Shown: positions 3,266 to 61,174 of the stretch, piece after piece | Position numbering within the stretch: the stretch's first letter is position 1 | Layout of the letters: every line of letters begins with the position of its first letter | DNA from: Allacma fusca | Taxonomy: Eukaryota > Arthropoda > Collembola > Symphypleona > Sminthuridae | DNA length: 64,000 nucleotides | Direction of reading: 5' to 3' | Assembly (NCBI GenBank): GCA_947179485.1 | Contig: OX359250.1 | Coordinates: 8,165,873 to 8,229,872 of the forward strand | Program-made: the position numbers and the translations under genes | The notes under the pieces: model-generated | What the model saw: the letters and a program-made list of their open reading frames with translations, nothing else | Database searches by the model: none | What the model was told of the DNA's origin: nothing

Positions 3266-3373
3266 CCTCGAGTGTATGTATGTGTGTGTATTCCGTGTGT
3301 ATATATGTATGTATATATGTGTATGTATGTGTATTTATGTGTGTGTATTCCGTGTGTATATATGTATGTATAT
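3266..3373 (+). repeat. 57-bp minisatellite, left fragment
   Basis: TGTGTATTCCGTG and TATATGTATG blocks match the array that resumes at 10028. The LTR retrotransposon pair at 3374-10027 has split the minisatellite. The flank on both sides is ATAT, so a 4-bp target duplication fits but cannot be proved within a simple repeat. Confidence 0.8.
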
Positions 3374-3657
3374 TGTAATGGTAAGAGGTAGTGTAGCTCA
3401 GACTTATTATAAGATAGTGTAGGGTGGCTCAGTGGTAGAGTAGTAAAGATAGGTCAAATTATGTCAAGAGCTAAACCAGGAATGACCTCCCTTAATTTAT
3501 TCAACAGAATAGATGGTAGTCGTTTAGTTAGGTAAGCATCGTGTAATAAGCATTGGTTAATATCTTTCGTAATATTATAAATTCATTATTTCTAAAACTA
3601 GTAATAATTGTTTGACTCAATAATAACAACTATGGTTATTCTAATAATGTCGTAACA
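3374..3657 (-). repeat. LTR, distal (3' on minus strand)
   Basis: 284 bp, TG to CA, identical by eye to the LTRs at 6559 and 9744. On the minus strand it contains AATAAA, a possible polyadenylation signal. On the plus strand it contains GGTGGCTCAGTGG, which resembles a tRNA A box by chance or descent, but there is no B box, so no tRNA gene is called. Confidence 0.88.
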
Positions 3658-3669
3658 CTTCTCCTTCCC
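3658..3669 (-). promoter_or_regulatory. polypurine tract
   Basis: Reads GGGAAGGAGAAG on the minus strand immediately before the LTR that starts TGTTACGAC. This is the expected position for priming of plus-strand DNA synthesis in LTR retrotransposons. The second unit has the same tract at 6843-6854. Confidence 0.75.
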
Positions 3670-3800
3670 GGGGTGGGGTGTTTTGAGACTGGGATATCTC
3701 TCCGTCATGGGGGTGTTATAGGTCAATCACTTATAACTGTAGGTTTCTGGTCATAGCAATGGATTGGAAATTAATTAATTAACGTTTATTCTGGTAGAAG

Positions 3801-4526
3801 TCATGGTGTTCTTGATTGCATTGTTATCCATTGTCTGAAGGCATAGCAGTCACGTAGTTTGTGATTGCCAGTATTACAGAATGAACAAATTGGTGGTAAT
3901 GTTGTGTTTGAGGCATTTGGTAAATTGGAGGTAGGGTAATTCTTGTATTCTGTACAGTGGTTGCTAAAGTGTCTTCGTTGCTGTAAGTCCTTTTTTGGGA
4001 AGCTGACATGTCTTTTATTGCAGTTGTTCTTATGATGGTATTTATGTTGGCTATTCCATCTCAGTTGTTTGCTCAGTTCTCTGAAACTATTTGTTTGGGG
4101 AAGACTGCAAAAATTATTGGGAGATGAGGAATAATTATTTATTCGCTTGCTGGATATTGCATTCTTGAATGCTGTGCGGGGTAGTGTGGGAATTTCGATC
4201 ATGTGTCGGTATAGTTCTTCTAGAACAGGCATTTGATGTTGGGAGTTAGAGATGTTTTTCTTGGTAGTGGAATGAATTCGGTGGTGTCGTGGATCAGATC
4301 CTTGTCGCGGGAAGTAACGGGGATAATCTGGGGTATATGGAGCGTTGGGGAACGTTTTGGGAATAGGGGAGAACGAAGGTGGATGTATCCGTTTTGGTGG
4401 GGGAGTGGGAGGACTATTAAATACAATTGACATTAATGGGACAAGCTTTGGGATGGTTCTGGAATTGTTGATACGGTGGGAGGTTTCCGGGATGGCTTGT
4501 GTAGCCTGATGATCTCCCTTCTTCAC
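3801..4526 (-). CDS. second CCHC-knuckle protein of LTR element, copy 1
   Basis: 241 residues, rich in Pro, Ser, Asn and His, ending in a retroviral-type zinc knuckle, CSFCNTGNHKLRDC (CX2CX4HX4C), about 20 residues from the C terminus. No matrix- or capsid-like fold is obvious in the basic, proline-rich N-terminal part. The knuckle closely resembles the one in the upstream gag frame (4535-5500), so the two proteins probably share a nucleic-acid binding tail through duplication. Likely role, by inference, is RNA binding. It lies last before the 3' LTR. Confidence 0.65.
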   Translation of the reverse strand: MKKGDHQATQAIPETSHRINNSRTIPKLVPLMSIVFNSPPTPPPKRIHPPSFSPIPKTFPNAPYTPDYPRYFPRQGSDPRHHRIHSTTKKNISNSQHQMPVLEELYRHMIEIPTLPRTAFKNAISSKRINNYSSSPNNFCSLPQTNSFRELSKQLRWNSQHKYHHKNNCNKRHVSFPKKDLQQRRHFSNHCTEYKNYPTSNLPNASNTTLPPICSFCNTGNHKLRDCYAFRQWITMQSRTP

Positions 4527-4534
4527 CAGGCTAT

Positions 4535-5500
4535 TTAGTTTTCCGATCGCCAGTATTGGTCCTCGTTTGAAGGGTAGTGGTCATTGATTGAATCGTAGAT
4601 TGTATTTAGATGATAAAGTTGATGTGGGCTGCGATTAGGAAATTGTTGTTCGAGTTGTCCAAATTGTTGTTGAGTTGTAGGGTCGTTTCGTCGTTGATAG
4701 TTATTATTTGGGTTGCTGGTAACGATACTAGTCTCATTTAGCCATCGTTTGAAAGATCGACAATCTCGTAGCTTGTGGGTGTTTGTATTGCAGAATGAAC
4801 AAGTATGGGCTGTGGTTGCTGTTGTTTGGAAAGATGTAGTTGGCATTTGATTTGATGTATTCGGTGTTGGTAGCAGAGGTTGGTTGAAATTTGTCATTGG
4901 GTATTCATAAAGTTTCGTTATGGGCATTGCAGATTGTTGTTGTGGGGGTTGAGAGTGTTGAGATTGTAATTTGGAAGTATAGAACTCCAGCTGTTTTTGG
5001 AACTGGTCGATGGTACCATCAGCTCCAAGTTTCAATTGGATATTCCAGGTTAGTTCCTGAGGTAGTCCTTGGTATAGATAATCAAGTTTACAAGAGTCAG
5101 TCATTGTGGGGTCCATACGTTTGAATATACTTAATTTCTTGTAGATATAATCACGGGCGTTGTCTGTTTCGGCTGTGAATGTGGTGGTAAGATTTTCAGC
5201 TGTTGCGATGGCTTTATCGTTCTTTTCTGAAAATGCTTTCTGAATTTGTTCCTCGAATTCCTTGAAACGCTGTTGGGAGTTGGCGATATTTAAATTCTCC
5301 AGAAAATTGTCGTTGGAAAAGTTCCACCAGTGTAGAGCAGTTCCTTGGAGCAGAGAATCCATATTTTCGAATTTCCATTTGTCAGTCAGCTTGAAGTGAG
5401 TACATCTATAGTTCAAGGATTTCAGCCAAGCTTTACATGAGGATTGTCCATCGTAGGTGGGAATATTGGAGAATATTTCGTTCGGTAAAAAGGAAGTCAT
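4535..5500 (-). CDS. Gag-like protein with CCHC knuckle, copy 1
   Basis: 321 residues. The N-terminal 150 residues follow the Retrotrans_gag pattern: IPTYDG, then KAWLKSL, a tryptophan-rich segment with LLQGTALHWW, then an FKEFEEQIQKAFSEK helix. A Gln/Pro/Thr-rich linker follows, then the zinc knuckle CSFCNTNTHKLRDC near residue 245. Known: such proteins form the particle and bind element RNA. The start is the first ATG of the domain and lies right behind the preceding frame (5503-5877). Subfamily (Ty3-like or other) was not settled because no pol is present. Confidence 0.82.
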   Translation of the reverse strand: MTSFLPNEIFSNIPTYDGQSSCKAWLKSLNYRCTHFKLTDKWKFENMDSLLQGTALHWWNFSNDNFLENLNIANSQQRFKEFEEQIQKAFSEKNDKAIATAENLTTTFTAETDNARDYIYKKLSIFKRMDPTMTDSCKLDYLYQGLPQELTWNIQLKLGADGTIDQFQKQLEFYTSKLQSQHSQPPQQQSAMPITKLYEYPMTNFNQPLLPTPNTSNQMPTTSFQTTATTAHTCSFCNTNTHKLRDCRSFKRWLNETSIVTSNPNNNYQRRNDPTTQQQFGQLEQQFPNRSPHQLYHLNTIYDSINDHYPSNEDQYWRSEN

Positions 5501-5502
5501 GT

Positions 5503-5877
5503 TTAGTATCTATGCATCCACTCTTGTCCGTCTGGATCAGTCAAATCAATATTTGCCAGTATAGGGTTATTGACGAAGTCTTCAAGGGTGCGTTGTTGAT
5601 AGGTAACTGAGATGTTTGCTAATTGTTCGTAGATGTAGGAGGTATTAACTTTTAATTGGATGGTGACAATGTCGTCTTCGTGTTTTGAATAGAAAATGGT
5701 GTTGGTAGTGGCAATGTGAATGTTGATTTCCAAAGATGGATCAGTTGGTAAGGTGTATTGCTTTAATAAGGTAAAGTCTGGATAGTGGTAATCGTCAGGT
5801 GAAACGTAAGCAAAGATATTGATAAGGACCATGGGGTTGGCAGTGAGAGATATTTCCGGTCGCGGTGACTTCCACAC
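5503..5877 (-). CDS. unassigned 124-residue protein of LTR element, copy 1
   Basis: First frame after the leader, starting MWKSPRPEISL and ending just before the gag-like frame. It is mixed alpha/beta in character, with no membrane segment, no cysteine motif and no similarity I recognise. Its place between the structured leader and gag suggests expression from the same transcript. Function unknown. Confidence 0.6.
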   Translation of the reverse strand: MWKSPRPEISLTANPMVLINIFAYVSPDDYHYPDFTLLKQYTLPTDPSLEINIHIATTNTIFYSKHEDDIVTIQLKVNTSYIYEQLANISVTYQQRTLEDFVNNPILANIDLTDPDGQEWMHRY

Positions 5878-5963
5878 TAGTTCTCTAAGTGTTTATAAAT
5901 TTTGAAAAAATTGGGCAGGGGTTCCCCCTAAATTTGCACTTTTTTTATTTTTATTATTTTTTA

Positions 5964-6330
5964 TAACCCGGAATAATCCGAAGATTCGCCGTAGGTTAAT
6001 AATAATATCCCGGAAAGTCAGGTGACAAACCGTAGGATATTCACTGTCGAAATTAACCCGGAAAGTCTAAAGACCTACCGTAGGTTATAAAAGAAGTATG
6101 TAGGAGGAGTAATTTCCCGGTAAAAGTTTTTAAACTCAACCGTAGAAAATTACAGAAAGTAAAAAATTCAATAATCCGGAAAGTCGTTAAGACCTACCGT
6201 AGATTATGAATAAATATCACTTCACGATATTCCGGTAAAGGTTGTTAAACCCAACCGTAGAATATCACACTAAATAACACACTAATTAATTTTCACAACC
6301 CGGCAAGTCGTATTGACCTACCGTAGGTTG
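5964..6330 (-). repeat. seven covarying hairpins in LTR-element leader, copy 1
   Basis: Seven units of 35-45 nt lie at 5964-5998, 6004-6041, 6054-6087, 6109-6153, 6171-6207, 6226-6266 and 6296-6330. Written on the plus strand, each is: outer stem, CGG, three-base loop, inner stem and loop, loop, CCG-TA, outer stem. Outer stems differ but pair (TAACC/GGTTA, AATATCC/GGATATT, ATAATC/GATTAT, GATATTC/GAATATC, CAACC/GGTTG; one mismatch in the fourth unit). Inner stems also change together (GTC/GAC, GGTT/AACC, AGTTT/AAACT, AATC/GATT). CGG and CCGTA are invariant. The block lies between the 5' LTR and the first ATG on the element's sense strand, so a Gag-binding, packaging or translation element is the natural inference. 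Confidence 0.85.
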
Positions 6331-6558
6331 AGAAAAAATGAGATTACACAAGGAGGTAAATTGTATTCGTAAAATGTTACTCGTGATGAGTAGTGTAAAT
6401 GGAGGTTGGTGTCACTGATTGTAAAAAAATGTAATTGTGTAAAAAAAATGTAAATAATGTAATTCGTCACTGTGTAATGGGTGTGAAATGACACTCGAAG
6501 GTAGAGAGTAAAATAAATACCGTGAAATGAGAGGAAAGGTCACTAAAAACCGGCGCCT

Positions 6559-6842
6559 TGTAATGGTAAGAGGTAGTGTAGCTCAGACTTATTATAAGAT
6601 AGTGTAGGGTGGCTCAGTGGTAGAGTAGTAAAGATAGGTCAAATTATGTCAAGAGCTAAACCAGGAATGACCTCCCTTAATTTATTCAACAGAATAGATG
6701 GTAGTCGTTTAGTTAGGTAAGCATCGTGTAATAAGCATTGGTTAATATCTTTCGTAATATTATAAATTCATTATTTCTAAAACTAGTAATAATTGTTTGA
6801 CTCAATAATAACAACTATGGTTATTCTAATAATGTCGTAACA
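6559..6842 (-). repeat. shared middle LTR
   Basis: Identical by eye to the outer LTRs. It serves as the 5' LTR of the unit at 3374-6842 and the 3' LTR of the unit at 6559-10027. Next to it on the internal side (minus strand) is a GC-rich GGCGCCGG stretch that could be the primer-binding site; I could not assign a tRNA. Confidence 0.88.
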
Positions 6843-6985
6843 CTTCTCCTTCCCGGGGTGGGGTGTTTTGAGACTGGGATATCTCTCCGTCATGGGGGTG
6901 TTATAGGTCAATCACTTATAACTGTAGGTTTCTGGTCATAGCAATGGATTGGAAATTAATTAATTAACGTTTATTCTGGTAGAAG

Positions 6986-7711
6986 TCATGGTGTTCTTGA
7001 TTGCATTGTTATCCATTGTCTGAAGGCATAGCAGTCACGTAGTTTGTGATTGCCAGTATTACAGAATGAACAAATTGGTGGTAATGTTGTGTTTGAGGCA
7101 TTTGGTAAATTGGAGGTAGGGTAATTCTTGTATTCTGTACAGTGGTTGCTAAAGTGTCTTCGTTGCTGTAAGTCCTTTTTTGGGAAGCTGACATGTCTTT
7201 TATTGCAGTTGTTCTTATGATGGTATTTATGTTGGCTATTCCATCTCAGTTGTTTGCTCAGTTCTCTGAAACTATTTGTTTGGGGAAGACTGCAAAAATT
7301 ATTGGGAGATGAGGAATAATTATTTATTCGCTTGCTGGATATTGCATTCTTGAATGCTGTGCGGGGTAGTGTGGGAATTTCGATCATGTGTCGGTATAGT
7401 TCTTCTAGAACAGGCATTTGATGTTGGGAGTTAGAGATGTTTTTCTTGGTAGTGGAATGAATTCGGTGGTGTCGTGGATCAGATCCTTGTCGCGGGAAGT
7501 AACGGGGATAATCTGGGGTATATGGAGCGTTGGGGAACGTTTTGGGAATAGGGGAGAACGAAGGTGGATGTATCCGTTTTGGTGGGGGAGTGGGAGGACT
7601 ATTAAATACAATTGACATTAATGGGACAAGCTTTGGGATGGTTCTGGAATTGTTGATACGGTGGGAGGTTTCCGGGATGGCTTGTGTAGCCTGATGATCT
7701 CCCTTCTTCAC
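6986..7711 (-). CDS. second CCHC-knuckle protein, copy 2
   Basis: Same 241-residue protein as at 3801-4526, in the second tandem unit, offset by 3185 bp, with no difference in translation. It carries the same C-terminal CSFCNTGNHKLRDC knuckle. Confidence 0.65.
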   Translation of the reverse strand: MKKGDHQATQAIPETSHRINNSRTIPKLVPLMSIVFNSPPTPPPKRIHPPSFSPIPKTFPNAPYTPDYPRYFPRQGSDPRHHRIHSTTKKNISNSQHQMPVLEELYRHMIEIPTLPRTAFKNAISSKRINNYSSSPNNFCSLPQTNSFRELSKQLRWNSQHKYHHKNNCNKRHVSFPKKDLQQRRHFSNHCTEYKNYPTSNLPNASNTTLPPICSFCNTGNHKLRDCYAFRQWITMQSRTP

Positions 7712-7719
7712 CAGGCTAT

Positions 7720-8685
7720 TTAGTTTTCCGATCGCCAGTATTGGTCCTCGTTTGAAGGGTAGTGGTCATTGATTGAATCGTAGATTGTATTTAGATGATA
7801 AAGTTGATGTGGGCTGCGATTAGGAAATTGTTGTTCGAGTTGTCCAAATTGTTGTTGAGTTGTAGGGTCGTTTCGTCGTTGATAGTTATTATTTGGGTTG
7901 CTGGTAACGATACTAGTCTCATTTAGCCATCGTTTGAAAGATCGACAATCTCGTAGCTTGTGGGTGTTTGTATTGCAGAATGAACAAGTATGGGCTGTGG
8001 TTGCTGTTGTTTGGAAAGATGTAGTTGGCATTTGATTTGATGTATTCGGTGTTGGTAGCAGAGGTTGGTTGAAATTTGTCATTGGGTATTCATAAAGTTT
8101 CGTTATGGGCATTGCAGATTGTTGTTGTGGGGGTTGAGAGTGTTGAGATTGTAATTTGGAAGTATAGAACTCCAGCTGTTTTTGGAACTGGTCGATGGTA
8201 CCATCAGCTCCAAGTTTCAATTGGATATTCCAGGTTAGTTCCTGAGGTAGTCCTTGGTATAGATAATCAAGTTTACAAGAGTCAGTCATTGTGGGGTCCA
8301 TACGTTTGAATATACTTAATTTCTTGTAGATATAATCACGGGCGTTGTCTGTTTCGGCTGTGAATGTGGTGGTAAGATTTTCAGCTGTTGCGATGGCTTT
8401 ATCGTTCTTTTCTGAAAATGCTTTCTGAATTTGTTCCTCGAATTCCTTGAAACGCTGTTGGGAGTTGGCGATATTTAAATTCTCCAGAAAATTGTCGTTG
8501 GAAAAGTTCCACCAGTGTAGAGCAGTTCCTTGGAGCAGAGAATCCATATTTTCGAATTTCCATTTGTCAGTCAGCTTGAAGTGAGTACATCTATAGTTCA
8601 AGGATTTCAGCCAAGCTTTACATGAGGATTGTCCATCGTAGGTGGGAATATTGGAGAATATTTCGTTCGGTAAAAAGGAAGTCAT
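7720..8685 (-). CDS. Gag-like protein with CCHC knuckle, copy 2
   Basis: Same 321-residue Retrotrans_gag-type protein as at 4535-5500, identical in translation. Identity of both units across all coding frames supports a very recent duplication or an assembly repeat. Confidence 0.82.
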   Translation of the reverse strand: MTSFLPNEIFSNIPTYDGQSSCKAWLKSLNYRCTHFKLTDKWKFENMDSLLQGTALHWWNFSNDNFLENLNIANSQQRFKEFEEQIQKAFSEKNDKAIATAENLTTTFTAETDNARDYIYKKLSIFKRMDPTMTDSCKLDYLYQGLPQELTWNIQLKLGADGTIDQFQKQLEFYTSKLQSQHSQPPQQQSAMPITKLYEYPMTNFNQPLLPTPNTSNQMPTTSFQTTATTAHTCSFCNTNTHKLRDCRSFKRWLNETSIVTSNPNNNYQRRNDPTTQQQFGQLEQQFPNRSPHQLYHLNTIYDSINDHYPSNEDQYWRSEN

Positions 8686-8687
8686 GT

Positions 8688-9062
8688 TTAGTATCTATGC
8701 ATCCACTCTTGTCCGTCTGGATCAGTCAAATCAATATTTGCCAGTATAGGGTTATTGACGAAGTCTTCAAGGGTGCGTTGTTGATAGGTAACTGAGATGT
8801 TTGCTAATTGTTCGTAGATGTAGGAGGTATTAACTTTTAATTGGATGGTGACAATGTCGTCTTCGTGTTTTGAATAGAAAATGGTGTTGGTAGTGGCAAT
8901 GTGAATGTTGATTTCCAAAGATGGATCAGTTGGTAAGGTGTATTGCTTTAATAAGGTAAAGTCTGGATAGTGGTAATCGTCAGGTGAAACGTAAGCAAAG
9001 ATATTGATAAGGACCATGGGGTTGGCAGTGAGAGATATTTCCGGTCGCGGTGACTTCCACAC
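8688..9062 (-). CDS. unassigned 124-residue protein, copy 2
   Basis: Same as the frame at 5503-5877; identical translation, function unknown. Confidence 0.6.
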   Translation of the reverse strand: MWKSPRPEISLTANPMVLINIFAYVSPDDYHYPDFTLLKQYTLPTDPSLEINIHIATTNTIFYSKHEDDIVTIQLKVNTSYIYEQLANISVTYQQRTLEDFVNNPILANIDLTDPDGQEWMHRY

Positions 9063-9148
9063 TAGTTCTCTAAGTGTTTATAAATTTTGAAAAAATTGGG
9101 CAGGGGTTCCCCCTAAATTTGCACTTTTTTTATTTTTATTATTTTTTA

Positions 9149-9515
9149 TAACCCGGAATAATCCGAAGATTCGCCGTAGGTTAATAATAATATCCCGGAA
9201 AGTCAGGTGACAAACCGTAGGATATTCACTGTCGAAATTAACCCGGAAAGTCTAAAGACCTACCGTAGGTTATAAAAGAAGTATGTAGGAGGAGTAATTT
9301 CCCGGTAAAAGTTTTTAAACTCAACCGTAGAAAATTACAGAAAGTAAAAAATTCAATAATCCGGAAAGTCGTTAAGACCTACCGTAGATTATGAATAAAT
9401 ATCACTTCACGATATTCCGGTAAAGGTTGTTAAACCCAACCGTAGAATATCACACTAAATAACACACTAATTAATTTTCACAACCCGGCAAGTCGTATTG
9501 ACCTACCGTAGGTTG
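9149..9515 (-). repeat. seven covarying hairpins, copy 2
   Basis: Exact counterpart of the array at 5964-6330, shifted by 3185 bp, in the leader of the second unit. Being identical to copy 1, it adds no independent covariation; the covariation evidence is between the seven hairpins within a unit. Confidence 0.85.
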
Positions 9516-9743
9516 AGAAAAAATGAGATTACACAAGGAGGTAAATTGTATTCGTAAAATGTTACTCGTGATGAGTAGTGTAAATGGAGGTTGGTGTCAC
9601 TGATTGTAAAAAAATGTAATTGTGTAAAAAAAATGTAAATAATGTAATTCGTCACTGTGTAATGGGTGTGAAATGACACTCGAAGGTAGAGAGTAAAATA
9701 AATACCGTGAAATGAGAGGAAAGGTCACTAAAAACCGGCGCCT

Positions 9744-10027
9744 TGTAATGGTAAGAGGTAGTGTAGCTCAGACTTATTATAAGATAGTGTAGGGTGGCTC
9801 AGTGGTAGAGTAGTAAAGATAGGTCAAATTATGTCAAGAGCTAAACCAGGAATGACCTCCCTTAATTTATTCAACAGAATAGATGGTAGTCGTTTAGTTA
9901 GGTAAGCATCGTGTAATAAGCATTGGTTAATATCTTTCGTAATATTATAAATTCATTATTTCTAAAACTAGTAATAATTGTTTGACTCAATAATAACAAC
10001 TATGGTTATTCTAATAATGTCGTAACA
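9744..10027 (-). repeat. LTR, proximal (5' on minus strand)
   Basis: Third copy of the 284-bp LTR, ending AACA at 10027, after which the interrupted minisatellite resumes with ATATATGTG. Confidence 0.88.
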
Positions 10028-10400
10028 ATATATGTGTATATATGTGTATTTATGTGTGTGTATTCCGTGTGTATATATGTATGTATATATGTGTATATAT
10101 GTGTATTTATGTGTGTATTCCGTGGGTATATATGTATGTATATATGTGTATATATGTGTATTTATGTGTGTGTATTCCGTGTGTATATATGTATGTATAT
10201 ATGTGTATATATGTGTATTTATGTGTGTGTATTCCGTGTGTATATATGTATGTATATATGTGTATATATGTGTATTTATGTGTGTGTATTCCGTGTGTAT
10301 ATATGTATGTATATATGTGTATATATGTGTATTTATGTGTGTGTATTCCGTGTGTATATATGTATGTATATATGTGTATATATGTGTATATATGTGTATT
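10028..10400 (+). repeat. 57-bp minisatellite, right part
   Basis: About six copies of a 57-bp unit containing TGTGTGTATTCCGTGTG and TATATATG blocks. Because 57 is divisible by three, all frames stay open and produce long Cys/Tyr/Val/Ile pseudo-proteins on both strands; these are not genes. Confidence 0.9.
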
Positions 10401-14630: not shown

Positions 14631-14960
14631 TCACTCATAAACACTTTTAGAAACACTTGCTAATATGGCTTTCACTAGGTTTTGGTTTCGCAAAAGCAGG
14701 CGTTTTGCAGTCTCTTTGTCGTTCGAATAGATTTTAATTTTCTTTACGAATTTACAAACTTGAGCGGTTTCCTTTTTACAAAATAAATTAAAATTGTATA
14801 TTAATTCCAGTAACGCATGTATTTGCAAATCTGATGCATTCTTCACAAGCCTTCTAGCCTTTACCTTTGATTTGACTGTTACAATTTGAAGGAGGAACTG
14901 ACAGTTTTCTTCAAACGAATTATTCACCGTCATTTTATTGGAGGGCGTATACTTCAGCAT
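14631..14960 (-). CDS. small conserved Polinton protein
   Basis: 109 residues, helical and basic, with the order FLLQIVTVKSKVKARRLVKN, SDLQIHALLELIYNFNLF, FVKKIKIYSND and KRLLLRNQN. This follows the small Polinton/adintovirus-type protein whose usual pattern is a string of helices with an Arg/Lys-rich centre and KRxLL near the end. Its function is not established. It overlaps the start of the ATPase frame by about 25 bp, consistent with the compact order of these elements. Confidence 0.6.
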   Translation of the reverse strand: MLKYTPSNKMTVNNSFEENCQFLLQIVTVKSKVKARRLVKNASDLQIHALLELIYNFNLFCKKETAQVCKFVKKIKIYSNDKETAKRLLLRNQNLVKAILASVSKSVYE

Positions 14961-15603
14961 TCTGGTCAGGGAAAATTGAATTTCTAACCCAAAAAGGAAA
15001 TGACTTATTTTTAGGATGCATGTCTAAAACGAGGTAGCCACACTGTCGACTTGACACGGCTTTAATATAGGCTGAAGTCAGAAAGTTTGTCTGACCTGTG
15101 CACACTTGTTTAGCGATGTTAGTGATTATACTGCGGTCTCTGGTATTATCAAACAACAGTAGTATTTGCGTATTTAAATTTATCTCTCTTAACCCTTTTA
15201 CAAATGGATTCTGAAGAATTAAAATTATGCTCGCCCCTCGATGATGTGAATGTTTAATAAAATCACGAGTCACAAGGTCCAAGTTTTCTTTCATTGAAAA
15301 CGTATCCTGCTGGTCTTTGATCACAATTAAACAAGGATCACTAGCCAATGTTTCAATATCGTGAAGATTACTTGTAAATATTATATTTTTATCTTCTTCC
15401 TTTAATTTATAAAACTCTTTCTGAAAATCGCTATAGACGTAGATGACCTTTTCTAATCGCTTTTCAAATAGTTCAAAGCGCCTGCGTATTATTTCAAGTG
15501 TCTTATACGTTTTACCACCCTGTGTGCTGCCTGCGATAGATATTGTACTGGGGTGGGGGAAGGAATAGTTAATTAAATTATTTTCTTTAGTTCCAATTTC
15601 CAT
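14935..15603 (-). CDS. Polinton FtsK/HerA-type packaging ATPase
   Basis: 222 residues. The Walker A loop is AGSTQGGKT near residue 24, after FPHPSTISI, the lead-in usual for Polinton and adintovirus ATPases. A hydrophobic Walker B strand, CLIVIKD, lies near residue 91. The diagnostic block DFIKHSHHRGASIILILQN follows, then LLLFDNTRDRS and CGYLVLDMHP, each matching the family pattern in order. Length is close to the family norm. Known role: a motor that packages element DNA into capsids. As part of a broken element it is treated as a fossil. Confidence 0.85.
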   Translation of the reverse strand: MEIGTKENNLINYSFPHPSTISIAGSTQGGKTYKTLEIIRRRFELFEKRLEKVIYVYSDFQKEFYKLKEEDKNIIFTSNLHDIETLASDPCLIVIKDQQDTFSMKENLDLVTRDFIKHSHHRGASIILILQNPFVKGLREINLNTQILLLFDNTRDRSIITNIAKQVCTGQTNFLTSAYIKAVSSRQCGYLVLDMHPKNKSFPFWVRNSIFPDQNAEVYALQ

Positions 15604-16439: not shown

Positions 16440-16639
16440 NNNNNNNNNNNNNNNNNNNNNNNNNNNNNNNNNNNNNNNNNNNNNNNNNNNNNNNNNNNNN
16501 NNNNNNNNNNNNNNNNNNNNNNNNNNNNNNNNNNNNNNNNNNNNNNNNNNNNNNNNNNNNNNNNNNNNNNNNNNNNNNNNNNNNNNNNNNNNNNNNNNNN
16601 NNNNNNNNNNNNNNNNNNNNNNNNNNNNNNNNNNNNNNN
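16440..16639. other. assembly gap (200 N)
   Basis: Exactly 200 undetermined bases, probably a gap of standard size rather than a measured length. Frames that cross it are meaningless. Missing Polinton genes could lie here. Confidence 0.99.
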
Positions 16640-18041: not shown

Positions 18042-19463
18042 TATCGATTCGAATATATTGTAGAAAGTGTTTTTAAGTTCAGATTTTTAGTTAGATTCTA
18101 AGTAAATACAACCGTAAAAATTGAGGTTGAAAATGGAACGTTTTTGTGTCTAGAATTTTGAGCATTCAAAATTAAAGTATGTGCAGGGTAGTGCATCGCA
18201 CGGGTACAAAAATGGTGTACCTGGACCTGGACCCAAATGGTGGGTACCGGCAAAACTCGTACCCATACCCGTACCTGATTATAAGTACCCATTAAATAAA
18301 TTTTGGTACCTGGACCTGATTATTTTGCAAGTAGTGCGTACCTGAATTTTACCCATACCCAAAATATACCCAATACATGGACCTGTACCTGAAAATGTTT
18401 CCTGCGTACCTGTACCCAATCAGGTACTTTAAAAAGAATTACTGTAAACGACTCAACATGATGACATTCGATGATTTACATCACAGCAATTACAAGCTAG
18501 AGGAAATTCAGCCTCATCATAATTTTTGCAAAGCTAGACATCTTAATGGAACTATAACTTCTATACATTTGAAGAATTGCCATCATTATTATCAATTAAA
18601 TCTTCCACTTCTAGGTCATCCTCCATAACCACAATATCATTTAACTTCATTTTGATTGAATCACAAGTGGAATTTGTAATTATATGAACTTATTGCTGGT
18701 ACGTTGTTCTAAGTTGGTTAACCATCTCTATTGCTTAAACGTATGCTTTTCAAAAATTACGATGCATTCCTCAAAAAACACGCTGAATAGCAAAATAGAT
18801 CTTTAGATCGGAGAGAGCCACGTACTACACTAGATGCCTCGTAAGATTGATTTCTGTTCGTAAAAGTACCCAGATTTTCAGGTACTAATTTATCAGGACC
18901 AGGTATATCGGAACCTTGTACCTGTTCCTGTCAGGTACAACCCAAACACTTCCAAGTTTGTACATGTACCCAGGCACTCCGGAACGTCCAAAAAAGTGGG
19001 GGGACAATATTTTAAAATTAGTTTTCGTTACATTTTCTTACACACACTAAATGCTATCAAAATTTTACTGATTTCAAATAGAGGTATCAAAGAATTGATT
19101 TCTCGATCTATTTCCGAGAATGGTTCAATCTGTTCTTTCATTTTTGGTCTGATATGGTCCAAATGTGTAGAACCATTCCTCTAGATCTGTTTTTTTTGAC
19201 GTAAATGTTTCACCAAACAACAATATTTCATTTTAATTTTTAATATCCCGAAACAAACTCCTTGTGTGACGTTTTAATACTCAGTTGTACTCTTTTCAAT
19301 AATATTGGCGCGCTAAAACCTATTGAGTTTATAAATTGCTCCTAGCAAATTTTCGGTTCAGTTCGTAATACCGGAATGGTATTATCTGTCTGGTCCGACA
19401 TTTTGGAACAGATTTATTGGTCTGGCATGAATTTGGAACGAAATTCAAAGTAAAAGTTTCAAA

Positions 19464-19997
19464 GAGAAGTTAGAAGAACTAGACTTTTTTGTAAACTGGG
19501 AAGAAATTACACCAGATTGGATTGAGAAAAATTATGACTCCATTATTCAAGCCACAATTATGAAATCCTACCTAGAAGACCTAGATAAAATAATGATCTC
19601 TCAACAGAACCCGAGGTATAAATATCTGTTAAAGGCTACATCAGCTCCAGGGTATCTCACTTGTAACCTACCTATGTACAAAATAAGACTAATTGCTCAA
19701 TTACGATTATCAAACCCATTAGAAGCTAAATTTACTTGGAAACAGAATACAATAGAAATTATACCGAATAAGGCATGCTTACTATGTAAACATCCCCAAA
19801 CCTCGATACAACATTTAATTGTAGATTGTTCCAAACTACAAAACTTAAGGGTCAAGCACAATTTAAGGCAAGAACATGAAACCTCAGAAAGAACTCTCGA
19901 AAATCTGTTGTGTAGTTCTAACCCAATTGTACTAAGCAACCTTTATTATATGTGTCTGGACATCCGTGCTATAATTACAAAAAACCTCAAGAAATAA
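19464..19997 (+). pseudogene. C-terminal part of LINE reverse transcriptase protein
   Basis: Open from the truncation point to the natural stop at 19997. The 145 residues from the first ATG (19560) include CLLCKHPQTSIQHLIVDC, a CX2CX8HX4C motif usual at the C terminus of Jockey/I/R1-type LINE proteins. The RT catalytic domain is missing because of the 5' truncation, so no activity is expected. The frame is preserved in copies 1 to 3, probably because they are young, not because it is selected. Confidence 0.75.
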
Positions 19998-20130
19998 CTG
20001 AAAAGGATACTGAAAAGAAGAAAAATTGTGACAATTTACAATTATTGTGACAATTGTTGTAAAATTATAAGTGTACTTTTGTGTATGAGCAGACTCAGAA
20101 ACACAATAAACATACATACATACATACATA
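19464..20130 (+). mobile_element. 5'-truncated LINE inside MITE, copy 1
   Basis: A 667-bp LINE 3' part, flanked by an 18-bp duplication CAAAGTAAAAGTTTCAAA (19446-19463 and 20131-20148), ending in ACACAATAAA and a CATA repeat tail. The duplication and microsatellite tail show target-primed insertion into the MITE before the MITE spread. The frame carries the last 180 or so residues of the ORF2-type protein. Confidence 0.87.
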
Positions 20131-20967
20131 CAAAGTAAAAGTTTCAAATTGTTCAAACTTTTGATCCAGGTCAAGATTTTGGCCTGGATCAATCTGGCAA
20201 GGGGAGGTCAATATGTTCGGCATACGAACGGGAAATAATATTCCAAATTTAGCAATAGTAAAGAATGTTGGATAGAAAAATATCCTCAAATTTTTTTATG
20301 GGCTGCGTTGCGTTGAATACCTAAGTTACTATTTGAATAATCACGCTATCACACAATTTCAACCCTGAAAGTATTGCAATGCTGGCATAAAATCGTTTGA
20401 ATAAGTTCAAAATCATTATCAAGGATGAAAACGGTAGCTTTAAAAAATCTAATGTTGACTGCAGTATGACCCACTACTTTCACTATTCAATTTTGGTAAT
20501 TACCTAGATGAGCCGATCTTCACATGCATGCATATACCAGGATGGAAAATATATTTATCATTTGAGTAAACAATTTTGTTTAGAAGAGGTAGTTTGTTGG
20601 GAGTTTTAAAAAACAACTAACAGCAGTTTGTGGAGGATTTTTAAAAAAACATGAAGCTTCATAGAAAATTTGACTTCAGAAAGTTAAGAAAAGGTTAATT
20701 TGATTCTTAAAAGTGGGGGGACAGCAGTATAGCCTGTCCCTCCCTGACATTTTTTGGGAGGGACAGTGACCCTCCTGTCCCCCCTTATTCCGGAGTGCCT
20801 GCCTGTACCCAACACCCGGCTTTGTACCCAAAATTTGGGTACATATAGCTAATACCCATAAAATACCCATTCAGTTTGGGTAATTCAACAGAGTACCCAT
20901 TTCGGACCTGACCTGTACCTGTACCCAAATGCTCAGGTACTACCCGTACCCATGCGATGCACTGGTG

Positions 20968-23634: not shown

Positions 23635-23850
23635 TGTTCCCTGGTGTTGGCCGGGGTTTCGGGCAAAAGAAAGAAGTACCAGGAATATAATTGGTTTTAA
23701 TTTACGGAAATCCGGTGTTGACAATGAGAACTCCCTGAAGTACCACCAAGAATGTACCTAATATTAATTGAGAGAAAACTGGTGCCGACGTAAGGAATCA
23801 CGTTAGGAGTACCAAGTATAGTTTTACTCCCCAGTACATATACTTGGCAT

Positions 23851-25680
23851 CAGGCACTCCGGAACGTCCAAAAAAGTGGGGGGGGGACAATATTTTAAAA
23901 TTAGTTTTCGTTACATTTTCTTACACACACTAAATGCTATCAAAATTTTACTGATTTCAAATAGAGGTATCAAAGAATTGATTTCTCGATCTATTTCCGG
24001 GAATGGTTCAATCTGTTCTTTCATTTTTGGTCTGATATGGTCCAAATGTGTAGAACCATTCCTCTAGATCTGTTTTTTTTGACGTAAATGTTTCACCAAA
24101 CAACAATATTTCATTTTAATTTTTAATATCCCGAAACAAACTCCTTGTGTGACGTTTTAATACTCAGTTGTACTCTTTTCAATAATATTGGCGCGCTAAA
24201 ACCTATTGAGTTTATAAATTGCTCCTAGCAAATTTTCGGTTCAGTTCGTAATACCGGAATGGTATTATCTGTCTGGTCCGACATTTTGGAACAGATTTAT
24301 TGGTCTGGCATGAATTTGGAACGAAATTCAAAGTAAAAGTTTCAAAGAGAAGTTAGAAGAACTAGACTTTTTTGTAAACTGGGAAGAAATTACACCAGAT
24401 TGGATTGAGAAAAATTATGACTCCATTATTCAAGCCACAATTATGAAATCCTACCTAGAAGACCTAGATAAAATAATGATCTCTCAACAGAACCCGAGGT
24501 ATAAATATCTGTTAAAGGCTACATCAGCTCCAGGGTATCTCACTTGTAACCTACCTATGTACAAAATAAGACTAATTGCTCAATTACGATTATCAAACCC
24601 ATTAGAAGCTAAATTTACTTGGAAACAGAATACAATAGAAATTATACCGAATAAGGCATGCTTACTATGTAAACATCCCCAAACCTCGATACAACATTTA
24701 ATTGTAGATTGTTCCAAACTACAAAACTTAAGGGTCAAGCACAATTTAAGGCAAGAACATGAAACCTCAGAAAGAACTCTCGAAAATCTGTTGTGTAGTT
24801 CTAACCCAATTGTACTAAGCAACCTTTATTATATGTGTCTGGACATCCGTGCTATAATTACAAAAAACCTCAAGAAATAACTGAAAAGGATACTGAAAAG
24901 AAGAAAAATTGTGACAATTTACAATTATTGTGACAATTATTGTAAAATTATAAGTGTACTTTTGTGTATGAGCAGACTCAGAAACACAATAAACATACAT
25001 ACATACATACAAAGTAAAAGTTTCAAATTGTTCAAACTTTTGATCCAGGTCAAGATTTTGGCCTGGATCAATCTGGCAAGGGGAGGTCAATATGTTCGGC
25101 ATACGAACGGGAAATAATATTCCAAATTTAGCAATAGTAAAGAATGTTGGATAGAAAAATATCCTCAAATTTTTTTATGGGCTGCGTTGCGTTGAATACC
25201 TAAGTTACTATTTGAATAATCACGCTATCACACAATTTCAACCCTGAAAGTATTGCAATACTGGCATAAAATCGTTTGAATAAGTTCAAAATCATTATCA
25301 AGGATGAAAACGGTAGCTTTAAAAAATCTAATGTTGACTGCAGTATGACCCACTACTTTCACTATTCAATTTTGGTAATTACCTAGATGAGCCGATCTTC
25401 ACATGCATGCATATACCAGGATGGAAAATATATTTATCGTTTGAGTAAACAATTTTGTTTAGAAGAGGTAGTTTGTTGGGAGTTTTAAAAAACAACTAAC
25501 AGCAGTTTGTGGAGGATTTTTAAAAAAACATGAAGCTTCATAGAAAATTTGACTTCAAAAAGTTAAGAAAAGGTTAATTTGATTCTTAAAAGTGGGGGGA
25601 CAGCAGTATAGCCTGTCCCTCCCTGACATTTTTTGGGAGGGACAGTGACCCTCCTGTCCCCCCTTATTCCGGAGTGCCTG
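23851..25680. mobile_element. composite hAT-like MITE (CAGGCACTCC family), copy 2
   Basis: 1830 bp, same orientation and almost the same sequence as copy 1. Flanks CTTGGCAT and TTTGGCAT are an 8-bp duplication with one mismatch. It differs mainly in the length of the G run near the left end and of the CATA tail of the internal LINE. Confidence 0.87.
24347..25009 (+). mobile_element. 5'-truncated LINE inside MITE, copy 2
   Basis: Same truncation point and same 18-bp flanking duplication (24329-24346, 25010-25027) as copy 1. This proves that the LINE was inherited with the MITE rather than inserted separately. The C-terminal protein frame (24443-24880) is unchanged in translation. Confidence 0.87.
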
Positions 25681-42960: not shown

Positions 42961-43200
42961 AATAGTGTGGACTTTCCTGGATATGGTTGAACTTTCATGT
43001 TCGGATTTACGGATATTTTTACACTTGCTTTGGGAATTGTTTGGACATTTCTCCGGATATAGTTGGATTTTTGTGTGTTTAGGCATTGTGGGGACTTTTC
43101 CTAGGATATTGTTGGGCTTTTATTTTATTATTATTTGGATTTACCCAATTTTAAACATCTTTTAGACGTGGTTTTTACCCATTGGTAGAAAAGAAGGGTG
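42880..43200. repeat. foldback arm B
   Basis: Inverted and roughly 85 percent similar by eye to 46990-47290. Both copies contain GGATTTACGGATATTTTTAC and GCTTTGGGAATTGTTTGGA, and both lead into the same minisatellite. Together with it they form long inverted arms about 3 kb apart. Confidence 0.7.
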
Positions 43201-43830
43201 GAAAGGAGTAGTGACCCATTGGTTTAACCAAGGGTGGAAAGGAGAGGTGACCCAATTGGTTTAACCAAGGGTGGAAAGGAGAGGTGACCCAATTGGTTTA
43301 ACCAAGGGTGGAAAGGAGAGGTGACCCAATTGGTTTAACCAAGGGTGGAAAGGAGAGGTGACCCAATTGGTTTAACCAAGGGTGGAAAGGAGAGGTGACC
43401 CAATTGGTTTAACCAAGGGTGGAAAGGAGAGGTGACCCAATTGGTTTAACCAAGGGTGGAAAGGAGAGGTGACCCAATTGGTTTAACCAAGGGTGGAAAG
43501 GAGAGGTGACCCAATTGGTTTAACCAAGGGTGGAAAGGAGAGGTGACCCAATTGGTTTAACCAAGGGTGGAAAGGAGAGGTGACCCAATTGGTTTAACCA
43601 AGGGTGGAAAGGAGAGGTGACCCATTGGTTTAACCAAGGGTGGAAAGGAGAGGTGACCCATTGGTTTAACCAAGGGTGGAAAGGAGAGGTGACCCATTGG
43701 TTTAACCAAGGGTGGAAAGGAGAGGTGACCCATTGGTTTAACCAAGGGTGGAAAGGAGAGGTGACCCATTGGTTTAACCAAGGGTGGAAAGGAGAGGTGA
43801 CCCATTGGTTTAACCAAGGGTGGATCTACG
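43200..43830 (+). repeat. 36/37-bp minisatellite, ~17 copies
   Basis: Unit GGTGACCCAATTGGTTTAAC then CAAGGGTGGAAAGGAGA. The first ten or so units are 37 bp (CCCAATTGG); from about 43617 all are 36 bp (CCCATTGG), which keeps reading frames open and gives the repeat THWFNQGWKGEV. These frames are not genes. A few diverged units remain in the inverted arm at 46848-47010. Confidence 0.92.
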
Positions 43831-44064: not shown

Positions 44065-45896
44065 CAGGCACTCCGGAATAAGGGGGGACAGGAGGGTCAC
44101 TGTCCCTCCCAAAAAATGTCAGGGAGGGACAGGCTATACTGCTGTCCCCCCACTTTTAAGAATCAAATTAACCTTTTCTTAACTTTTTGAAGTCAAATTT
44201 TCTATGAAGCTTCATGTTTTTTTAAAAATCCTCCACAAACTGCTGTTAGTTGTTTTTTAAAACTCCCAACAAACTACCTCTTCTAAACAAAATTGTTTAC
44301 TCAAATGATAAATATATTTTCCATCCTGGTATATGCATGCATGTGAAGATCGGCTCATCTAGGTAATTACCAAAATTGAATAGTGAAAGTAGTGGGTCAT
44401 ACTGCAGTCAACATTAGATTTTTTAAAGCTACCGTTTTCATCCTTGATAATGATTTTGAACTTATTCAAACGATTTTATGCCAGTATTGCAATACTTTCA
44501 GGGTTGAAATTGTGTGATAGCGTGATTATTCAAATAGTAACTTAGGTATTCAACGCAACGCAGCCCATAAAAAAATTTGAGGATATTTTTCTATCCAACA
44601 TTCTTTACTATTGCTAAATTTGGAATATTATTTCCCGTTCGTATGCCGAACATATTGACCTCCCCTTGCCAGATTGATCCAGGCCAAAATCTTGACCTGG
44701 ATCAAAAGTTTGAACAATTTGAAACTTTTACTTTGTATGTATGTATGTATGTATGTTTATTGTGTTTCTGAGTCTGCTCATACACAAAAGTACACTTATA
44801 ATTTTACAATAATTGTCACAATAATTGTAAATTGTCACAATTTTTCTTCTTTTCAGTATCCTTTTCAGTTATTTCTTGAGGTTTTTTGTAATTATAGCAC
44901 GGATGTCCAGACACATATAATAAAGGTTGCTTAGTACAATTGGGTTAGAACTACACAACAGATTTTCGAGAGTTCTTTCTGAGGTTTCATGTTCTTGCCT
45001 TAAATTGTGCTTGACCCTTAAGTTTTGTAGTTTGGAACAATCTACAATTAAATGTTGTATCGAGGTTTGGGGATGTTTACATAGTAAGCATGCCTTATTC
45101 GGTATAATTTCTATTGTATTCTGTTTCCAAGTAAATTTAGCTTCTAATGGGTTTGATAATCGTAATTGAGCAATTAGTCTTATTTTGTACATAGGTAGGT
45201 TACAAGTGAGATACCCTGGAGCTGATGTAGCCTTTAACAGATATTTATACCTCGGGTTCTGTTGAGAGATCATTATTTTATCTAGGTCTTCTAGGTAGGA
45301 TTTCATAATTGTGGCTTGAATAATGGAGTCATAATTTTTCTCAATCCAATCTGGTGTAATTTCTTCCCAGTTTACAAAAAAGTCTAGTTCTTCTAACTTC
45401 TCTTTGAAACTTTTACTTTGAATTTCGTTCCAAATTCATGCCAGACCAATAAATCTGTTCCAAAATGTCGGACCAGACAGATAATACCATTCCGGTATTA
45501 CGAACTGAACCGAAAATTTGCTAGGAGCAATTTATAAACTCAATAGGTTTTAGCGCGCCAATATTATTGAAAAGAGTACAACTGAGTATTAAAACGTCAC
45601 ACAAGGAGTTTGTTTCGGGATATTAAAAATTAAAATGAAATATTGTTGTTTGGTGAAACATTTACGTCAAAAAAACAGATCTAGAGGAATGGTTCTACAC
45701 ATTTGGACCATATCAGACCAAAAATGAAAGAACAGATTGAACCATTCCCGGAAATAGATCGAGAAATCAATTCTTTGATACCTCTATTTGAAATCAGTAA
45801 AATTTTGATAGCATTTAGTGTGTGTAAGAAAATGTAACGAAAACTAATTTTAAAATATTGTCCCCCCCCACTTTTTTGGACGTTCCGGAGTGCCTG
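44065..45896. mobile_element. composite hAT-like MITE (CAGGCACTCC family), copy 3, reversed
   Basis: 1832 bp in the opposite orientation to copies 1 and 2, with a perfect 8-bp duplication ATTCTTAT (44057-44064, 45897-45904). This is the clearest proof of element boundaries and duplication length for the family. It contains the same truncated LINE. Confidence 0.93.
44736..45402 (-). mobile_element. 5'-truncated LINE inside MITE, copy 3
   Basis: Same LINE part as at 19464-20130, on the minus strand, with the same 18-bp duplication (44718-44735, 45403-45420). The RT C-terminal frame is at 44869-45306. Confidence 0.87.
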
Positions 45897-46109
45897 ATTC
45901 TTATGAAACAATAAGTCGGGACTTTTAATTATTGAAAGTATGGAAACAGAACGCAAGAATTAAAGTAAGAAGGCGACTTTAATGCCGATGAAATAAAAAC
46001 AAAGATGTTATTATTGTGATGATTCGCATTCAATTTTATTTTTAGTGGGATGCCAAGATGCCACTAATTCCGCTATGCTTACATTGCTTTTCGTAGAAAA
46101 AAATCCAAG

Positions 46110-46847: not shown

Positions 46848-47330
46848 GTGAACCAATGGGTCATATCTACGTTCCACCCTTTGTTAAAGCAAATGGGTCA
46901 CCTCTACTTTCCAACCTTAGTTGAACCAATGGGTGGTCACCTTTACTTTCCAGCCTTGGTTAAACCAATGGGTGGTCACCTTTACTTTCCATTCTTGTTT
47001 AAACCAATAGGTAAACATCACGTCTCGAAGCAGTTTTAAAAATGAGTAAATCCAAATAATATCAAAATAAAAGTCTAACAATATAAAAGGAAAAGTTTCC
47101 ACGATACCTAAACACAAACATCCAGAGAAACTTCCAAACAATTCCCAAAGCAAGTGTAAAAATATCCGTAAATCCAAACATCAAAGTTCAACAATTTCCA
47201 GGAAAGTTTACACTATTGAAAATCCTCTTTGAAAATGCAGAGCGATGCAGGAGAGTGTTTTCGAGTTTCGCATCGATTGAATAGAAGCTTCGGTTTGCTT
47301 TATAGACCACCGGTTTACTACGCTATCCTC
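46848..47330. repeat. foldback arm B'
   Basis: Starts with about four diverged units of the 36-bp minisatellite (reverse strand), then matches 42880-43200 in inverted orientation as far as the TGCAGGAGAGTG-like part at about 47250 and the ACCACCGG part at 47310. Only arm B has undergone the large minisatellite expansion. Confidence 0.7.
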
Positions 47331-59809: not shown

Positions 59810-61174
59810 TGTGGGCTGAAAATAATTTACTAAAGTGTAATAATTATGCAAATGCATTTCGAATAATTTAATTTTACAGTAGTAGCAATTTTGTATGCTT
59901 TGTAGATCAAAACATCTCAATGTATGAAACTTCAATGCCTATAAAGTAAAAAAACAACAAAAACAATGATAAGCTAAGAATTTGGAGGAATAAACATAAA
60001 TGCAGAATTAATGCTAAAAAGGCAATCAGAGACTGGCGGCCAAATGTAAAGCAAAAGTTATTAAGTTTTTTCATTATCTTATTATTTCTACAGCCTTGTC
60101 CTCACATGTTTGTGAGATTCATTACATGGGAGTAGCCACTTATTGACAGGATTGCTATTGGACAGTGCTAATATGCAATGCACAATACTCAGTTCTTAAA
60201 TTATCTGGCCGCTATAAGAAATGTAAGCCTTTTATGAAAACAGTAGATATTATAATATTACAAAAATTACATTTGATCTCTGGATATGTTCTGTTTTTAT
60301 TTTTGATACCAGAAATAATTACTGAGTTTTGCAAGTAGAAATTCGGAGCCCTTTACTGTTTGCTACATACACATGTGATATTGCGAAATTCTTTCCGACA
60401 GGGTGCAATACCAGTGGGCTTGGGGGACTGATTTTATGGAATTATTTATTGTTGAAAGGTCATGACGTCAGCACTAAATTACAACTACAGACAAATATTC
60501 AGTGTTCTTCCAATTCAAAACGTGTTGATCTGTGGTAGTCTAACATTGCCACGAAAAGAAATTCTCATTTTAGCCTTTCTGCAATAATTTCAGTTCATTA
60601 CGGAGATACAAATATATTTTAAAATAATTGACGAATTGTTTTTTACATTATTCAGCTGTAAAGAGTAATTCAGATAACTAGCATTTTACAACGCTAGAAG
60701 CTCCAGCATTTACTGAAAAAACACGTGATTTCCCTATGAGTGCGTAATATATAAAACAAATAGAAAATGGGATATAAAATAACAAACCAGTGAACATCTA
60801 ATTTGAACCGACGAAATCTTGACTTGTATTTAGAGGTTTTTAAAATTTTTGTGGGGAATTTCTTCCTAACAAAATTATGCGAGTTTTAAAATGCGTGCTG
60901 GAGTATGTTCTCAGTGTGATATGCAGCCCCAGAATATGGAGGGCTTATCTTTATTTGAAATGCGGGTCTGAATAAAGGTACTTATGTATATTCTTAGGTA
61001 CTTATTTATTGACGATATTTCTACCTTCTAGTTACTAATTTGGGTTCACGAAATTTTGGCCCAATAACTAGGTTTAAATAAAGTAATTAGTTAGGTATGT
61101 TGTTTATACAAGTCAACACTGATAGCCTGCTTAAATAGCATAAACCATTCAAGCAAACCTTCATCACTGTTAGT
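59810..61174. other. non-coding, no gene seen
   Basis: A+T-rich, no exon, RNA gene or terminal-repeat pair recognised. Confidence 0.4.

Follow-up and report, generated by a model that had tools for sequence, protein, structure and literature searches.

Psi packaging signals lie in general in the 5' part of the RNA. Among the described systems closest to the present locus, the Gag3 protein of Ty3 carries one CCHC motif, and its NC is required for all Ty3 Gag3 nucleoprotein interactions (PMC4974528). In RNA viruses, multiple stem-loops with one common recognition motif form a packaging scheme and promote assembly (PMC6281560), and the gypsy insulator comprises twelve Su(Hw) repeats clustered in the 5' untranslated region (PMC2493044). 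In Sireviruses, palindromes occur in clusters and, with one exception, have a CGG-CCG core; the authors suggest for them a possible role in regulation (PMC2829016). Here, seven paralogous units are described from the leader of an LTR retroelement of the springtail Allacma fusca; the arms of the seven units have changed in step, and the units are likely a family of predicted, selected RNA hairpins.

The element is located on the minus strand of the window (the whole 64-kb stretch of DNA that was analysed) and is arranged LTR-body-LTR-body-LTR (3374-10027; Table 1). The three LTRs (284 bp each, TG...CA ends) are mutually identical, as are the two bodies, and the LTR at 6559-6842 serves as 5' LTR of the copy 3374-6842 and as 3' LTR of the copy 6559-10027. 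The tandem of bodies and LTRs at 3374-10027 shows identity over 3470 bp, which reflects a very recent recombination or insertion, or a duplication in the assembly. Read on the minus strand, the body consists of a PBS-like stretch AGGCGCCGG, the 726-nt leader, ORF1, ORF2, ORF3 and a stretch GGGAAGGAGAAG that we take to be the polypurine tract. The PBS-like stretch follows directly after the 5' LTR (6550-6558, minus) without the usual TGG; inside it lies the palindrome GGCGCC. As a possible target-site duplication, ATAT flanks the tandem on both outer sides (3370-3373 and 10028-10031), although within a TA-rich microsatellite. No polymerase was found among the ATG-started ORFs of at least 100 aa in the body, the class of frame that the check covered; the three ORFs present are ORF1 to ORF3. 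With its LTRs, its polypurine tract and no ORF for reverse transcriptase (RT) or integrase, the element is a non-autonomous LTR retrotransposon in which no polymerase was found. The transcript start was inferred from the LTR, and the 5' position of the leader in the genomic RNA rests on that.

Table 1. Coordinates of the features of the element in the window (seven units: sense strand is the minus strand).
Feature	Position	Strand	Remarks
LTR	6559..6842	minus	284 bp, TGTTACG...CCATTACA
Further identical LTRs	3374-3657 and 9744-10027	minus	
Leader between 5' LTR and ORF1	5833..6558	minus	726 nt, zero AUG on sense strand
Hairpin unit 7	6296..6330	minus	-22.0 kcal/mol, lowest energy among the seven (sense strand, 10-nt flanks)
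Hairpin unit 6	6226..6266	minus	
Hairpin unit 5	6171..6207	minus	
Hairpin unit 4	6109..6153	minus	9-pair outer stem, one U-G wobble on sense strand
Hairpin unit 3	6054..6087	minus	
Hairpin unit 2	6004..6041	minus	7-bp outer stem
Hairpin unit 1	5964..5998	minus	outer stem, UA bulge, CGG/CCG, inner AAUC/GAUU, UUCG loop (sense strand)
Same seven hairpins, second body	9149..9515	minus	body identical to first
ORF1	5503..5832	minus	109 aa, no Pfam match at cut-off
ORF2, predicted Gag	4535..5500	minus	321 aa, one CCHC knuckle CX2CX4HX4C
Candidate -1 frameshift signal, ORF2 to ORF3	4478..4544	minus	heptamer, stop, stem, possible pseudoknot
ORF3	3801..4433	minus	210 aa, second CCHC knuckle resembling that of ORF2
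Polypurine tract GGGAAGGAGAAG (presumed)	3658..3669	minus	directly before 3' LTR of first copy, read from sequence

CCHC knuckles of the form CX2CX4HX4C were read from the sequence in ORF2 and in ORF3 (one in each), and the two knuckle regions are similar. At the Pfam cut-off no match was obtained for ORF1, ORF2 or ORF3, Gag families included. The protein homolog search of the element covered ORF2 and returned no homolog of ORF2 at E<=0.001 and none at E<=10 among 462 candidates. The PDB search with ORF2 gave only two antibody-like matches (E 0.05 and 0.33), neither of them credible; its single-sequence fold was uninformative (pLDDT 39), and in viral contigs one stretch matched the ORF2 peptide pattern and none was confirmed. 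ORF2 is referred to as a putative Gag at motif level, by its knuckle and by the layout of the element only, the profile, homolog, PDB and fold tests having brought no confirmation.

Several other features were recorded in the window. Two neighbouring ORFs of 222 and 109 aa at 14631-15603 (minus) had no Pfam match at the cut-off; the larger contains a nucleotide-binding-like motif, GSTQGGKT, and presumably resembles the packaging ATPases of Maverick-like elements. A fragment present four times at ~99% identity (18971-20801, 23849-25680, 44065-45898 and 61174-61983) is probably LINE-derived, because the ORF of one copy has a sub-threshold zf-RVT match. A tandem satellite with a ~37-bp period extends over 43177-43824 and has a diverged inverted relative at 46851-47293. 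At ~16440-16639 there is a run of unknown bases, where a crossing ORF reads X and the self-comparison breaks. Across 91% of its length, one receptor ORF of the window shares 90% identity with a protein of Allacma fusca.

For detection of the units, the 64 kb were scanned with the pattern CGG-N10-22-CCGTAG, which gave 7 matches in the leader, 7 in the second body (9154-9486) and 3 elsewhere, against a chance expectation of 1.1 (mean of 50 Markov sequences). The seven paralogous units at 5964-6330 have their cores at 5969, 6011, 6059, 6118, 6177, 6233 and 6301, and both CGG and CCGTAG are present in every one of them. On the sense strand a unit is built from outer arm, UA, CGG, 2-3 nt, inner stem, a loop of 4-5 nt, inner stem, 2-3 nt, CCG and outer arm, with a CGG-to-CCG spacing of 16 to 19 nt among units. 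Only the columns C-UA-CGG, one U and CCGG are invariant, i.e. bulge, core and one U; the asymmetric UA bulge occurs in 7/7 units. An outer stem of 5 pairs is present in all seven units on the sense strand (in unit 4 with one G·U), and inner stems of 3-5 pairs, with four different sequences, are present in all seven as well. No loop sequence is conserved among units, and the linkers between the 5-bp arms (7-31 nt) contain no common motif by eye. A covariance model built from the seven units gave 21 matches on the window, comprising the seven units twice (minus), units 3, 5 and 7 read on the plus strand, likewise twice (E 0.006-0.024), and a single match at E 0.56; there is therefore no credible further unit in the window. 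With Rfam 15 (4227 families), 0 matches were obtained in the window at the gathering cut-off, and a relaxed threshold applied to the leader yielded 2 matches, far under the cut-off and not credible. Self-cleaving ribozymes (hammerhead, twister, pistol and hairpin) were considered and rejected, their conserved letters, as generally known, being unlike those of the units and no Rfam match being found. Viral contigs contained no match to two hairpin patterns; in prokaryote genomes a gapped pattern with 20 fixed letters had one match, in a Pararhodobacter contig, where about two are expected by chance, and no relative was confirmed there.

Covariation was assessed on a MAFFT alignment of the seven units, which is not fitted to structure and comprises 77 cells, by comparison with 500 shuffles. 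Pairing amounted to 93.5% of the 77 cells (82.8% in shuffles; reached in 0/500), 10 double-changed cells kept the pair (4.0 in shuffles; 0/500), 6 pairs had double changes (3.2 in shuffles; 6/500) and the covariation score was 0.416 (0.198 in shuffles; 0/500). When partners were slid by 1-3 columns, pairing was at most 54.3% and the score at most 0.121. The count of further pair types was ordinary relative to shuffles (269/500), and among the eight outer and core pairs four are invariant and hence uninformative. Of the helix-2 cells, 76.2% were paired in the MAFFT alignment, which misplaces part of the inner stem; the inner stem was therefore assessed on a structural alignment made by hand. 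This alignment was drawn with the structure in view and with its own segmentation (I4 empty for unit 2), and its 83 cells, which leave out O6-O10 and I5, all pair on the sense strand (83/83), with 10/10 double changes keeping the pair. On the sense strand each of its four non-Watson-Crick cells is G·U (A×C on the other strand); 3/4 of them lie in I4, a pair drawn with knowledge of the sense strand, and belong to the related units 3, 5 and 7. By eye, the omitted rows contain on the sense strand 5 G·U, no A·C and many mismatches in O6-O10, and 2 G·U in I5.

Permutation of the right arms among units (plus strand, Watson-Crick pairs only) reached the observed sum in 18/5040 cases (observed 42, highest 46) and the observed run length in 14/5040; some permutations exceed the observed value because units 1, 3 and 7 share arms and units 1 and 3 pair better mutually. 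In a tree-based null, in which pairs O2-O5 and I1-I3 were evolved on the unit tree from a paired consensus ancestor with no pairing constraint, a mean of 71.7% of variable cells was paired, compared with 100% in the units (0/5000 as high). All covariation is among paralogs of a single element, because no relative was found. A passive palindrome mini-satellite that spread by duplication, with template switching or gene conversion from arm to arm keeping it perfect, would need no function; all units are paralogs within one element, and palindromes repaired from a template can look as if they had undergone compensatory change, but such a process leaves unexplained the asymmetric UA bulge in each of the seven units and the confinement of invariance to bulge and core, and we consider it very improbable. 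The first-pass annotation of this DNA had described seven units with invariant CGG and CCG-TA at 5964-6330, which the scan recovered in full, and inner stems that change together, which agrees with the stems listed above; it had also named no described family with this consensus, in line with the Rfam searches. Its argument that compensatory change among the paralogs points to a selected structure is borne out by the MAFFT covariation score and by the tree-based null, above which the pairing of the units stands. Its pairing of the outer stems holds for 5 pairs in all units on the sense strand; on the plus strand that it had quoted, unit 4 departs from it, the G·U cell being C×A there and the Watson-Crick run of this unit 1.

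The sense strand of the element is the minus strand, and on it the fold of the whole leader had a z of -8.66 (0/20 shuffles as low), compared with -2.06 on the antisense strand (1/20 as low). The 726 nt of the sense leader contain 0 AUG (shuffle mean 6.1; 3/5000 as low) and the antisense leader contains 12 (11.0 in shuffles); the AUG-free run from the last AUG of the LTR to ORF1 measures 889 nt. Unit energy was lower on the minus strand in 7/7 units, single-unit z relative to shuffles was lower on the sense strand in only 4/7, and unit 1 was not more stable than shuffles (z -0.6). In the antisense ensemble the outer stems of units 2, 5, 6 and 7 reached 0.99; with 4/7 units on either strand, the antisense ensemble equals the sense ensemble in outer stems, and local hairpin formation alone therefore does not favour sense. 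From the sense fold excess, the lack of AUG and the G·U cells it follows that the selected molecule is very probably the RNA leader of the element, on the sense strand. The claim of the first-pass annotation on this point, the placement on the sense strand between 5' LTR and first ATG, is supported by fold z, AUG depletion and G·U cells; of its description of the locus as the leader of a gag-only LTR element, the place stands and no polymerase was found, and the word Gag holds by motif only.

The same data bear on whether the units are DNA sites, i.e. a clustered insulator or enhancer read as double-stranded DNA, the dyad reflecting a dimeric or multi-finger protein. The array has the same position as the twelve Su(Hw) repeats in the gypsy 5' untranslated region (PMC2493044) and shares the CGG...CCG signature of the clustered Sirevirus palindromes (PMC2829016). 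However, arms that change in step between units are not required of a DNA recognition site, the CGG-CCG spacing varies from 16 to 19 nt, the non-Watson-Crick cells are G·U on the sense strand (3/4 of them in I4, drawn with sense in view) and the leader shows its folding excess on the sense strand, so that DNA sites appear improbable. Taken together, the evidence speaks for an LTR-transcribed, scanned RNA more than for a pure DNA site.

Folding of the whole sense leader was predicted as an ensemble, which ignores proteins and co-transcriptional folding. Outer stems were strong in units 2, 4, 5 and 7 (0.78-0.99) and had a probability of 0.01-0.04 in units 1, 3 and 6, and core plus inner stem exceeded 0.5 in 6/7 units. 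Unit 6 had its core at 0.99, its inner stem at 0.92 and its outer arm at 0.01. Units 1 and 3 formed a mutual 10-bp cross-pair (mean 0.90) that encloses unit 2, whereas the outer stem of each by itself had a probability of 0.04; core and inner stem were at 0.28 and 0.29 in unit 1 and at 0.58 and 0.61 in unit 3. The arms of these two units (5959-6092) are complementary to each other over 10 and 7 bp, compared with 5 bp with their own partners. The whole-leader model, as a prediction, counts against seven equal hairpins. Between the array and ORF1 a separate G-rich hairpin, AGGGGGAACCCCU, is located at 5917-5929 (minus).

A different RNA step, be it export from the nucleus, RNA stability or dimerisation via the self-complementary arms, would be consistent with the 10-bp complementarity of units 1 and 3 and with the GGCGCC palindrome directly after the LTR; cross-pairing is expected among palindromic repeats, however, and there is no conserved loop sequence for kissing, and we regard such a step as distinctly unlikely.

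Another reading of the leader is translation control, in which ribosomes scan or shunt through the AUG-free leader and the hairpins set initiation at ORF1, perhaps via a repressor such as Gag. The AUG-free 726 nt and the 889-nt run fit a scanned mRNA leader, and the compact junction of ORF1 and ORF2 together with a candidate frameshift signal suggests a reliance on special translation steps; AUG depletion, however, would be found in any mRNA leader, with or without hairpins, and stability alone would not preserve an invariant bulge and core. Translation control is in our judgement somewhat unlikely. At the junction, the ORF1 stop and the ORF2 start are two bases apart (UAA AC AUG; 5498-5505, minus), an arrangement that would suit termination-reinitiation.

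The candidate -1 frameshift signal consists of the heptamer GGAAAAC at 4544-4538, in ORF2 phase and directly followed by a UAA stop, and of a stem that begins at 4533 after a 4-nt spacer (which starts with UAA) and has 7 perfect Watson-Crick pairs (11 pairs in the fold). Its loop GGGAG could pair with a downstream CUCCC ending at 4478, giving a possible pseudoknot. Ahead of the ORF3 ATG, 49 codons in the ORF3 frame are open (the 50th is a stop); this frame spans the end of ORF2 and is the -1 frame by coordinates. A stem so placed occurred in 7/2000 mononucleotide shuffles, and the fold z of the region was only -2.0 (6/200 shuffles as low). As ORF2 contains four loosely slippery heptamers, the one at 4544 included, GGAAAAC alone proves nothing, and the case for a candidate site lies in the placement of GGAAAAC at the stop together with the stem. 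To our knowledge, GGAAAAC is not among the textbook slippery heptamers. In the accessible part of one review GGAAAAC was not found, which says little because a related spelling used as yardstick was equally missing from that part. If the candidate signal works, the products would be Gag and a Gag-ORF3 fusion with two knuckles.

The reading that we tentatively prefer, with the balance falling just short of even, is that the hairpins are repeated docking sites through which the predicted Gag packages the RNA of its own element. The hairpins would form in the cell on the sense RNA, Gag would bind the invariant part, that is the UA bulge beside CGG/CCG, leaving the outer and inner helices free to vary, and several sites would give cooperative loading of Gag. 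With a Gag and without a polymerase, the element RNA would enter particles and borrow RT and integrase from another element; since such an element needs its own RNA in particles, selection for self-recognition is expected, and drifting yet paired arms around a fixed bulge and core are the trace to be expected of a protein that reads structure. Covariation, the fold of the sense leader, the lower unit energies on the minus strand, the leader position, the two CCHC knuckles and the limitation of invariance to bulge, core and one U speak for packaging, as do the precedents of Ty3 Gag3 (PMC4974528) and of the RNA-virus stem-loops (PMC6281560); the motif-level status of Gag, the predicted weakness of the outer stems of units 1, 3 and 6, the equally good outer stems of the antisense ensemble, the mixed single-unit z values and the origin of all units from a single element speak against it. 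A more specific version, in which Gag and a frameshifted Gag-ORF3 protein would load the RNA cooperatively via the UA-bulge hairpins, the array acting as a seven-fold structure-read tag and the element riding on a foreign RT, is possible, and we hold it with more doubt than confidence. On that version, the UA-bulge array would represent a new RNA motif family, and such a multi-copy tag is described for the leader of an LTR retrotransposon in none of the titles among the matches listed. If packaging by these hairpins is true, the element would be a compact example of a polymerase-less retroelement that keeps its own RNA recognisable. It would also provide seven natural variants of one binding site, in which the contacts of Gag could be read from the invariant positions because the paired arms drift, and would allow cooperative packaging to be tested in a springtail LTR element, beyond those of yeast and vertebrates.

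Among the literature matches listed, taken by title and start of abstract and with subscription literature mostly outside, nothing equivalent to a hairpin array in an LTR leader was found, and no title among the matches listed dealt with springtail LTR elements. With TR-GAG non-autonomous LTR elements the present element shares LTRs, a polypurine tract, a gag-like ORF and no pol found; those among the matches listed are from plants, and here the host is a springtail and there are three ORFs. The likeness to the gypsy insulator is that of repeats clustered in the leader of an LTR element (PMC2493044), but the Su(Hw) sites are DNA sites, and the present units have covarying arms and a leader with its folding excess on the sense strand. 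The Sirevirus motifs are likewise clustered palindromes with CGG-CCG; they are found in the LTRs and before env and are short dyads that follow, within each element, a single consensus (66.5-100% identity) (PMC2829016), whereas the present units lie in the leader and combine a bulge and two stems with arms that vary from unit to unit. The dispersed packaging signals of RNA viruses also comprise several stem-loops with one shared motif (PMC6281560); here the stem-loops are clustered in the leader of an LTR retroelement and have an invariant bulge and core, their recognition being putative. Psi signals and Ty3 Gag3 (PMC4974528) resemble the array in the 5' leader place, in the sense-strand structure and in the CCHC protein encoded by the element, and the array differs from psi in repeating a single hairpin type seven times, without an Rfam match and with arms that covary, as a putative target of Gag.
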